Source: Flammeovirgaceae bacterium 311
GTDB taxonomy: Bacteria > Bacteroidota > Bacteroidia > Cytophagales > Cyclobacteriaceae
Length of the DNA stretch: 64,000 nt
Direction of reading: 5' to 3'
NCBI GenBank assembly: GCA_000597885.1
Contig: CP004371.1
Location: forward strand, 3,550,501 to 3,614,500
Below the pieces are notes generated by a model. That model was not told the origin of the DNA. It made no database searches and was given only the letters and a program-made list of their open reading frames with translations. Every line of letters starts with the position of its first letter. Position 1 is the first letter of the stretch. The position numbers and the translations under genes were made by a program. Shown here one piece after another: positions 55,426-57,240 of the stretch.

Positions 55426-55906
55426 AACGGCAGTGCTATAGGATGTTATGGTAAAGCTCTGGTGGCAGTATCTCAAAAGTTACATCACCAGCTGATACTC
55501 TTCTAGCCATACAAGGCAAATCCTTTAGGAAAAACAACTCACAGAAGGCAGCAGGCAACAGGCTGGTAATTCCTCCAAATGGAATTCCCCTAAAAAAGTG
55601 GAGGGTTAGAAAAGAGTATATTAACTTAATCTAACCAATAACTACTATGGCAAAAAGGAAGGAGTATTCCAAGGAGTTCAAAGAGGAGGCTGTGAGGCTG
55701 GCTCAGGAGAGTGGCAATGTCAGTGAAACAGCCCGTAATTTAGGATTGCATTTAAGCATTCTGCGTAGGTGGAAAATAGAAGTGGAACAAGAGGGGGAAA
55801 AGGCATTTCCAGGCAAGGGTCATATTAAAGACGAGGAGCTGCGCCAGTTGCAAAGGGAGAATCAACGTCTAAAGGAGACAGTAGAGATTCTAAAAAAGGC
55901 AGTGGG

Positions 55907-55920
55907 CGGCAGCCGCGCTG
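55907..55920 (+). repeat. GC-rich micro-insertion 1 (14 bp)
   Basis: CGGCAGCCGCGCTG. Removing it gives ...AVGIFSSRSQ-stop, a normal end of an IS3 orfA. Boundaries may slide by one or two bases. Confidence 0.6.
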
Positions 55921-55952
55921 TATCTTCAGCAGCCGCTCCCAGTGAGATACCA

Positions 55953-55966
55953 GCGACCGACGCCCG
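55953..55966 (+). repeat. GC-rich micro-insertion 2 (14 bp)
   Basis: GCGACCGACGCCCG. Removing it gives VRYQFIREHRGEY, the usual start of orfB in the -1 frame. Confidence 0.6.
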
Positions 55967-56266
55967 GTTCATTAGGGAGCACAGAGGGGAATATTGCCTG
56001 GAGCGCCTCTGCCAGGCCATGGACGTTTCGCTAAGTGGCTACTATGCCTGGGTCAGCAGACCAGAGAGTAAGCGACAGCAGGCAAATGAGCAAATCCTAA
56101 GGGAAATAAAAGACATACATAGGCAGAGCCGCCAGAGTTACGGCAGCCCCAGAGTTTATCATGATCTAAAAGAAAAGGACATCAAATGCTCGGAAAATAA
56201 AGTGTCACTCCTGATGCAAATGAATGGCATAGCAGCTAAAAGGAAAAGAAGATTTATGGTCACCAC

Positions 56267-56280
56267 CGGGCGCCGGGCGC
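56267..56280 (+). repeat. GC-rich micro-insertion 3 (14 bp)
   Basis: CGGGCGCCGGGCGC. Removing it gives FMVTTDSKHSLSVAENKLNQ, the expected IS3 sequence. Confidence 0.7.
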
Positions 56281-56336
56281 AGATTCCAAACATAGTTTGT
56301 CAGTGGCAGAAAATAAACTCAACCAGGAGTTCTCAG

Positions 56337-56350
56337 CGGGGCTGCCCCAG
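56337..56350 (+). repeat. GC-rich micro-insertion 4 (14 bp)
   Basis: CGGGGCTGCCCCAG, with inverted repeat GGGGC/GCCCC. Removing it gives EFSASRPNEKWVTDIT, containing the first catalytic Asp. Confidence 0.7.
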
Positions 56351-56387
56351 CCAGCAGACCAAATGAAAAGTGGGTCACAGACATCAC

Positions 56388-56403
56388 GGCACGGGCCGCC
56401 CCG
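56388..56403 (+). repeat. GC-rich micro-insertion 5 (16 bp)
   Basis: GGCACGGGCCGCCCCG. Removing 16 bases gives WVTDITYIWTKEGW. Confidence 0.6.
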
Positions 56404-56589
56404 CTATATTTGGACTAAAGAAGGGTGGCTATATCTAGCTGTAGTGCTGGATCTGTTCTCCAGAAAAGTAGTGGGCTGGGCTATGGATGAGACCATGGAA
56501 AAGTGCCTGGTAATGACTGCTCTGACTATGGCTCTGAAGACCCGCCAGCCACAGGAAGGTCTGCTGCACCACTCAGATCGAGGAAGTCA

Positions 56590-56604
56590 CGGGGTCGCCC
56601 GGCG
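56590..56604 (+). repeat. GC-rich micro-insertion 6 (15 bp)
   Basis: CGGGGTCGCCCGGCG. It is in frame and adds five residues; without it the sequence reads HSDRGSQYASLDYQ, the second catalytic Asp region. Confidence 0.75.
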
Positions 56605-56793
56605 ATATGCCAGTTTGGATTACCAGAAACTGCTTCGGGATCAACAAATAATCTGTTCCATGAGTCGAAAGGCAACTGCTATGATAACGCTGCCATGGAA
56701 AGCTTCTTTGCTACACTGAAACAGGAACTGGTATATCATCGACAGTATGAGAACCGACAGCAAGCAAAACAGGATGTCTTTGAGTATATTGAA

Positions 56794-56808
56794 CGGGGCC
56801 GCCCGGCG
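56794..56808 (+). repeat. GC-rich micro-insertion 7 (15 bp)
   Basis: CGGGGCCGCCCGGCG, one base different from insertion 6. In frame; without it the text is [19 protein letters not shown]. Confidence 0.75.
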
Positions 56809-57048
56809 GTCTGGTATAACAGAAAAAGAAGACATTCATCCCTTGGCTATATGAGCCCTGAAAAATTTGAAACAATCAATTACTTTGCACTAGCTGCATA
56901 ACCTTTTCTAACCCTCCATCTTTTTAGGGGAAGTTCAAACAGCCCTTTGAGAATAGTTTGTCTAAGTATAGGTGCTACAACCAGCACCGGCTTATTTCCG
57001 TATTAGTTTAACATATAGAACTAATTTTTTAACATAAATTTTTTAGTC

Positions 57049-57240
57049 ATGCATTCAAAAGAATATAGAGCCCGCGGTAATTGGAATGAAATCAAAGGTG
57101 GGCTGAAACAGAAATATGGAAACCTGACGGATGATGACGTAACTTACCAGGAAGGTAAGGAAGACGAGTGGTTGGGTAAGCTTCAGCAAAAGACTGGCGA
57201 AACCAAGGATAAGATTAAGAGCTGGATCGACAGACTATAA
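57049..57240 (+). CDS. CsbD-family stress protein
   Basis: 63 residues with the CsbD pattern: GNWNEIKGGLKQKYGNLTDD, then a charged GKEDEWLGKLQQKTGETKDK and a final helix. CsbD-like proteins are small, hydrophilic and induced by general stress in several bacteria; molecular role unknown. It is a single gene followed by a hairpin at 57339. Confidence 0.92.
   Translation: MHSKEYRARGNWNEIKGGLKQKYGNLTDDDVTYQEGKEDEWLGKLQQKTGETKDKIKSWIDRL

Follow-up and report, generated by a model that had tools for sequence, protein, structure and literature searches.

Short inserts in Cytophagales transposases as candidate micro-introns or bypass elements

An IS3 transposase interrupted seven times

The window analysed here, a 64,000-nucleotide stretch of Flammeovirgaceae bacterium 311 (contig CP004371.1, positions 3,550,501 to 3,614,500) from a 6.67-Mb single-contig genome (G000), contains an insertion sequence (IS) of the IS3 family whose transposase is interrupted by seven short GC-rich inserts. 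The element spans 55585-56932 of the window and is the one full copy in its genome. Its family membership follows from two reading frames with an A6G slippery site, a DDE integrase domain that matches the rve profile above the curated cut-off, and terminal inverted repeats, the left at 55585..55614 on the plus strand and the right at 56903..56932 on the minus strand, which match each other at 93% over 30 bp. The original prediction for this DNA had described seven such inserts, and alignments to insert-free relatives find every one of them within the element, two at the orfA/orfB junction and five in orfB, with net lengths of 14, 14, 14, 14, 16, 15 and 15 bp. It was also right that inserts of 14 and 16 bp shift the frame and those of 15 bp keep it, and the peptides it quoted as restored are obtained once the five orfB inserts are removed.

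The helix-turn-helix part of the transposase is encoded by orfA at 55647..55903 on the plus strand, as are all features that follow; its end, taken from the junction alignment, is approximate and lies just past the A6G site, and the listed open reading frame (ORF) that contains it (55647-56366) extends beyond orfA proper. Insert 1 (~55904..55918, with edges ambiguous by a few bases) and insert 2 (55954..55967), both net 14 bp, lie at the junction and are missing from four relatives (L297, L303, L309 and L312), while a near-identical insert occupies the site of insert 2 in locus L006 of genome G029. The main, DDE part of orfB runs from an approximate start to the end of the frame (55968..56901). 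Frame-aware alignment to the insert-free L297 of genome G127, by which the orfB inserts were placed, gives 74% amino acid identity over 286 codons with no in-frame stop. Insert 3 (56266..56280, net 14 bp) falls between TT and DSKH, and neither it nor insert 4 (56334..56348, net 14 bp) is present in L297 or in L005, a copy in the same-genus genome G001. Insert 5 (56388..56404, net 16 bp), at the WVTDIT motif, recurs letter for letter in L005. Insert 6, CGGGGTCGCCCGGCG (56590..56604, net 15 bp), at the SDRGSQY motif, and insert 7, CGGGGCCGCCCGGCG (56794..56808, net 15 bp), are likewise placed by alignment to insert-free relatives. Besides its inserts the window copy has lost a single base near 56666, and it is therefore probably no longer functional.

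Insert 5 is the only one of the five orfB inserts that L005 has in common with the window, and L005 carries one insert that the window lacks. With the inserts removed, the two genes show a synonymous divergence (dS) of 0.57, a nonsynonymous divergence (dN) of 0.059 and a ratio of the two (omega) of 0.10 over 286 codons; the part of the gene that follows the shared, frame-shifting insert gives an omega of 0.07. Either insert 5 is old and the gene has continued under selection, or the identical 16 bases entered the same place twice.

The GC-rich inserts are concentrated in this element. We compared 644 kb of G000 with 655 kb of G001 and six extra G001 stretches picked for IS matches to the element, dropping alignments below 74% identity or below 70% new coverage, which left 431,586 aligned bases with 90 indels of 10-40 bp. 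Ten of the 90 had a GC fraction of at least 0.8, and five of those ten fell inside the 1.36-kb IS; one of the GC-rich indels outside it, 14 bp at genome position 3722253, falls in a stretch with 11-mers that also occur in two of the inserts. Intergenic DNA aligns poorly and is under-represented in such a comparison, which gives weight to a second measure, the density of GC-rich runs (13 G/C in 14 bases) across the 644 kb. The IS has 3.68 such runs per kb, coding sequence (ORFs of at least 80 codons) 0.296 and the DNA between genes 0.025, or two runs in 79.9 kb.

Other transposases of the genus carry comparable runs, in keeping with the earlier view that this is not a normal pattern of decay. 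We scanned 23 transposase loci of G000 and G001, counting only sequence windows that lay over 700 bases inside either end. Runs occur in G000 at L115, L121, L133 (five), L136 and L157 in addition to the element's own locus, L118, and in G001 at L117, L120 (the same as L005), L126, L129 and L140, the last two of which overlap. The remaining 12 loci have none, six of them with long open frames (L114, L123, L127, L132, L135 and L144). At most of the run-bearing loci the frames to the left and right are consistent with an interruption; this is not clear for L121 or for the second runs of L115 and L126, and L136 was set aside as an insert carrier, its sequence looking like a natural IS21-type gene. 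L129 resembles an IS1-type transposase (here and below, IS family names rest on recognised motifs, except for rve and DDE_3 profile matches). In the whole genome, the sole other exact copy of insert 7, CGGGGCCGCCCGGCG, lies in a second transposase, of IS630 type (L023), and a search for CGGGGYCGCCCGGCG with at most one mismatch likewise finds its sole other copy in an IS630-type transposase.

Inserts in transposases of other genomes

A second set of inserts is found in G063, a 9-Mb genome of the same order (family f5), where most are about 30 nt long with complementary ends. Together with those of G127, G140 and Rhodocytophaga aerolata, these inserts are mostly 15-34 nt, many are strongly structured, and their positions recur within transposases that belong to several IS families. 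The pattern GGACCTGN{10,22}AGGTCC has ten matches in G063 as against five for a backward control, and all ten lie in transposases as judged by recognised motifs. A looser pattern, run on 400 kb of G063 (220 kb chosen around ISs and 180 kb taken at random), gives 19 matches, all in transposase-like genes and none in the random part; the hosts are IS3 and IS1182 elements and one each resembling the IS256, ISL3 and IS481 types. The insert type GGACCTGCTACG...GCATCGGCTCC was found in two of 390 genomes of the order, with 16 matches in G063, eight in G140 and none for the control; all eight in G140 and the ten listed of the 16 in G063 fall in transposase-like genes of IS5, IS1182 and IS630 type. 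One and the same insert element can be met in either orientation and in more than one IS family, and at the IS3 site SRQT/YGSPR the insert is identical at 30 of 30 positions in L298 and L311, from two genera, within genes that are 68% identical. The same letters in different families, orientations and genera support, in these other genomes, the earlier suggestion of a mobile mini-element.

We aligned transposase copies frame-aware, protein to DNA, using L201 (IS1182) and L297 (IS3) as references, and obtained 15 insert-bearing copies: five of IS1182 (the G063 multi-copy element G063x5, L202, L203, L204 and L208) and ten of IS3 (the window, L005, L007, L298, L299, L300, L301, L310, L311 and L313). 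IS3 inserts were assigned to the class by eye. The count leaves aside insertions of 9-42 nt in the poorly aligned L302, L305, L306 and L314, and those of 101 and 24 nt in L300 and L301, and the orfB test is blind to junction inserts, one of which is present in L304. Six of the eight loci related to the G063 IS1182 element come from R. aerolata contigs. In IS1182, counting also partial or poorly aligned copies outside the 15 (L180, L181, L182, L207 and L215, of which L207 and L215 give identical results and are probably one locus), inserts recur at amino acids 101 (four elements), 246 (four), 288 (six) and 310 (four); the site at 246 has received two unrelated insert types.

Copying between similar genes, one form of the templated repair that the original prediction had also considered, gains no support as a route of spread. 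In 13 comparisons of copies that share an insert, the 24 flanking codons matched no better than many other windows of the gene and showed no conversion tract, the fraction of windows at least as alike ranging from 0.16 to 0.93, and gene conversion was rejected. Entry would instead be by a site-preferring insertion process. The location and behaviour of the inserts, though not a shared sequence, lead us to regard the GC-rich 14-17-mers of the window's genus and the inserts of mostly 15-34 nt elsewhere as one class, and its members as mobile and site-preferring.

Three observations concern individual sites. In L298, L301, L304, L007 and L310 an element of 30-33 nt stands at the junction just after the A6G frameshift site and could serve to stimulate frameshifting, be an insert, or combine the two. 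The IS3 site ESF/FATLK holds different inserts in L300 (G127) and L313 (G000, 5274 kb), from two families of the order; the L313 insert has 11-mers in common with intergenic palindrome clusters of G000 at L065 and L066, a possible source of inserts. At amino acid 288 of L208 an insert of 47 nt resembles the usual one of 28-30 nt with about 20 further nt within its loop, as though it had itself received an insert.

Reading frames, selection and possible skipping

Frame and junctions were counted for 37 inserts in 13 copies, leaving out L300, L301 and the 14-bp tandem duplication of L005 and keeping L202; many of the 37 lie at homologous sites and are not independent events. All but one, the 47-nt insert, measure 14-34 nt. 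The frame is shifted by 31 and kept by six, so in-frame inserts are not favoured. The junctions show exact direct repeats of 0-4 bases, mostly 0-2. Where the pre-insertion allele can be read, inspection indicates that the insert often replaces about one base, often a T, and that many inserts add their own length minus about one base.

Many of the interrupted genes are otherwise clean, by which we mean that the aligned part has no stop and no frameshift of one or two bases (one-residue gaps, two three-base insertions in L313 and seven extra bases at codon 470 of 472 in L203 and L208 were allowed). Eight of the 15 copies qualify: among IS1182, the G063 multi-copy element and L203 with three inserts each, L204 with two and L208 with eight in an otherwise clean frame of 472 codons; among IS3, L007 with three, L311 with four, and L299 and L313 with one each.

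Seven IS1182 copies, compared in pairs, give omega values of 0.09-0.19, which are rough at a dS of 0.76-1.50. Private nonsynonymous-to-synonymous (N/S) ratios, from a count that conditions on conserved codons, are 0.91, 0.74, 0.80 and 1.00 in the clean insert-bearing IS1182 copies and 0.78 and 1.35 in insert-free ones, against an expectation of 2.85 without selection, so that four of the five insert-bearing copies lie within or below the insert-free range and far below neutrality. In a paired comparison L208 has an N/S of 1.09 and the insert-free L179 one of 1.31. Selection on the insert-bearing copies is not clearly relaxed. A gene dead for the full length of the L208 branch should have gathered about 23 stops (assuming that dS divides evenly), and none is seen; L208 was thus alive for most of the branch, though not necessarily alive with its inserts. 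Insert-bearing elements have also multiplied: the G063 IS1182 element with three frame-shifting inserts has four full copies, three identical and one at 99.6%, and a split fifth, and an IS5-type element is present in seven copies with a 28-nt insert that keeps the frame.

In the genomes examined, then, the inserts are concentrated in transposases of several IS families, at recurrent sites and in both orientations; they mostly shift the frame, many sit in conserved motifs, and they often lie in genes that are otherwise clean. That they are mobile, non-coding inserts of very small size, one class that enters transposases at preferred sites and is perhaps skipped in expression, is a view to which we give an even chance. 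We hold more tentatively that the interrupted frame is expressed as one protein. Either the ribosome would pass over the inserts with no need of matched codons, or they would be cut out of the mRNA; an IS could thereby carry up to eight inserts while under selection, and skipping would also hold transposase output low. The full proposal is slightly more tentative still. It holds that Cytophagales transposases host mobile elements of about 14-50 nt, either micro-introns or bypass elements, that are structured, site-preferring, occupying fixed sites in some copies and missing there in others, shared by unrelated IS families and skipped.

Several results weigh against this proposal. Matched in-phase codons at the distance of the insert occur in one of the 37 inserts and in one to four of the shifted controls (insert edges being alignment-dependent), so classical matched-codon bypass shows no excess and was rejected. 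Nor does simple excision always restore the residue of insert-free relatives: at several sites R or H results where these have C, W or Y. Together these two results speak against classical bypass and leave unmatched bypass, removal from RNA or no removal at all. The bypass suggested by the original prediction may take place: insert-rich clean frames and low dN/dS agree with it, and the codon and residue evidence does not. Lesions other than inserts are found in seven of the 15 copies (the window, L005, L298, L300, L301, L310 and L202); L202 has one stop beside its two inserts and a private N/S of 1.50, L005 lacks most of orfA and carries the tandem duplication, and even the frames of L203 and L208 include the seven extra bases near their ends. 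The paired N/S of the G063 element, 1.00, exceeds that of the insert-free L201, 0.68. G063 also possesses an intact insert-free relative, L179, 70% identical and the nearest full one (40 of 55 candidates scored), so that the IS1182 copies may have been mobilised in trans. Finally, the similarity of some shared inserts exceeds that of the surrounding gene, which fits recent entry, and clean frames could for that reason mean that a gene was hit recently.

A recurrent base change accompanies the residue differences. At amino acids 101 and 288 of IS1182 and at the IS3 sites SRKGN/C and SRQT/Y, the base after an insert of 29 or 31 nt is C, and insert-free relatives mostly have T; this change from T to C makes the replaced codon R or H instead of C, W or Y.

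The evidence on structure is divided between the two sets of inserts. Those of the second set fold better on average than shuffled sequences (mean z -3.0, n=21), and 15 of the 37 inserts reach p <= 0.05 for energy and ten for crossing stems. In 13 hand-picked and hand-segmented inserts of one type, compensating changes occur at six of 15 paired positions (a count made without a control), and of 177 pairing cells 170 are Watson-Crick and three G-U. Two of the stems of this type cross, which implies either a pseudoknot or hairpins that exclude one another; a nested fold, the outcome of the energy model, is also possible. Also to be set against the proposal, three GGACCTGCTACG-type inserts fold no better than shuffles (z 0.16, 0.23 and 0.70), and neither do the GC-rich inserts of the window's genus (mean z -0.34, n=16, five of them from the window). 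The earlier suggestion that the GC-rich inserts form hairpins is therefore unsupported, and the 15-mers of the window failed as selected hairpins against composition-matched shuffles.

Competing explanations and known systems

The most serious alternative, nearly as likely as the skipping proposal and differing from it only in the last step, is that site-preferring micro-inserts simply inactivate transposases, either as parasites of ISs or as a silencing device of the host, and that nothing is skipped. Clean frames would then be recent hits, and multi-copy carriers would have been moved in trans by insert-free relatives. We regard this as a real but less than even prospect. Many inserts lie in conserved or catalytic motifs, as far as these were recognised, and GC-rich runs are missing from six transposase loci of G000 and G001 whose open frames are long; the other lesions, the greater likeness of some shared inserts than of their flanks, the intact relative in G063 and the lack of matched codons above controls all fit inactivation as well. 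Under inactivation, however, all eight inserts of L208 would have to precede any stop or frameshift and fall within a small fraction of its branch, and four of five insert-bearing IS1182 copies show no clear relaxation of selection. Inactivation would further require the frame-shifting insert shared by the window and L005 at an omega of 0.10 and dS of 0.57 to have been gained twice independently, and the G063 IS1182 element to have multiplied with no insert-free near copy among the candidates scored.

It is improbable that the inserts are ordinary palindromic repeats, like repetitive extragenic palindromic (REP) elements, that land anywhere and survive only in dead ISs. Six of seven inserts tested do have an 11-mer in common with four to six other places in the fetched parts of the genome (a raw count, with no chance expectation; for one insert two of the places are itself), and these include the intergenic repeats L065 and L066. 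Such repeats should nevertheless be commonest between genes, where GC-rich runs are rarest, and the inserts found by pattern in G063 are in transposases; the intergenic scarcity of GC-rich runs already disfavours random insertion of this kind. L065 (~10118) and L066 (~9859) are themselves composite palindromic repeats of G000 beside terminator-like hairpins, and both contain an identical GC-rich 16-mer. The S15 runs that we inspected, among the matches listed, proved to be mostly ordinary GC-rich codons, in RND-, PNPase- and mutase-like genes, or intergenic repeats.

That the inserts are normal protein segments of this IS3 group, or ordinary random indels, is very unlikely. Two of the seven in the window do keep the frame at 15 bp, and the decayed copies L302, L305, L306 and L314, three of which contain stops, have unclassed insertions of 9-42 nt in alignments that are poor (38-51% identity); relatives without the segments nonetheless align through every site, which refutes the reading as protein for the frame-shifting inserts, and five of the ten GC-rich indels in 431,586 bases lie in a single element. 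A sequencing or assembly artefact, which the original prediction had allowed for, is barely credible and has nothing in its favour, because insert 5 has an exact counterpart at its own site in another genome, and the pairs L006-window and L298-L311 likewise match or nearly match at the same site across genomes.

In a limited search of the open full-text literature we found no description of such inserts in bacterial transposases, which is consistent with the earlier remark that no bacterial equivalent has been described. The closest parallel is the byps of Magnusiomyces capitatus mitochondria, frame-disrupting nucleotide blocks at many coding places in 12 of 15 mitochondrial protein genes, which are thought to derive from mobile elements and in several cases are without perfectly matched codons (PMC5009743, PMC4592705). 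The inserts described here resemble byps in disrupting the frame at many coding sites and in the lack of matched codons, found here in one of 37; unlike byps, they reside in bacterial transposase genes. Phage T4 gene 60 has a single coding gap with matched GGA codons and a nascent-peptide signal (PMC5009743). It likewise places a structured non-coding gap within a reading frame, whereas the transposases have many inserts in variable codon phase, with matched codons all but missing. In the adhesin gene of Prevotella loescheii a hop of 29 nt has been reported, with little follow-up (PMC5009743). Its length is comparable to that of our inserts, and it differs in affecting a single gene that is not a transposase. 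P. loescheii belongs to the same phylum as the insert-bearing bacteria.

Other small elements fit less well. REP elements are numerous, extragenic palindromic repeats of 20-40 bp (PMC2817692, PMC3733652). In the stretches fetched, the inserts are neither extragenic nor of high copy number, lying instead in transposase genes. Rickettsia palindromic elements are palindromic mobile pieces in protein genes that are longer, in frame and translated, whereas only six of our 37 inserts keep the frame. Miniature inverted-repeat transposable elements (MITEs) exceed about 50 bp and duplicate their target site, unlike inserts of at most 47 nt with junction repeats of 0-4 bases. IS3 elements use programmed -1 frameshifting (PMC3711429). 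The A6G site is present here and one insert site lies just after it; a frameshift at A6G could not carry translation past the remaining inserts.

Should the inserts prove to be skipped, they would be the bacterial equivalent of bypassing in mitochondria, or the smallest elements known to us that resemble introns, in culturable organisms; to our knowledge, bacteria have given no earlier abundant case of genes interrupted by such small pieces and mended at expression. If they are not skipped, some process hits conserved motifs of transposases much more often than it hits other parts of the genome, and this would be a way of silencing ISs that we have not seen described. Either way, annotating such copies as simple pseudogenes may mislead. 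Downstream of the IS3 element, the window contains at 57049-57240 a small ORF that we take to resemble a CsbD-type stress protein.
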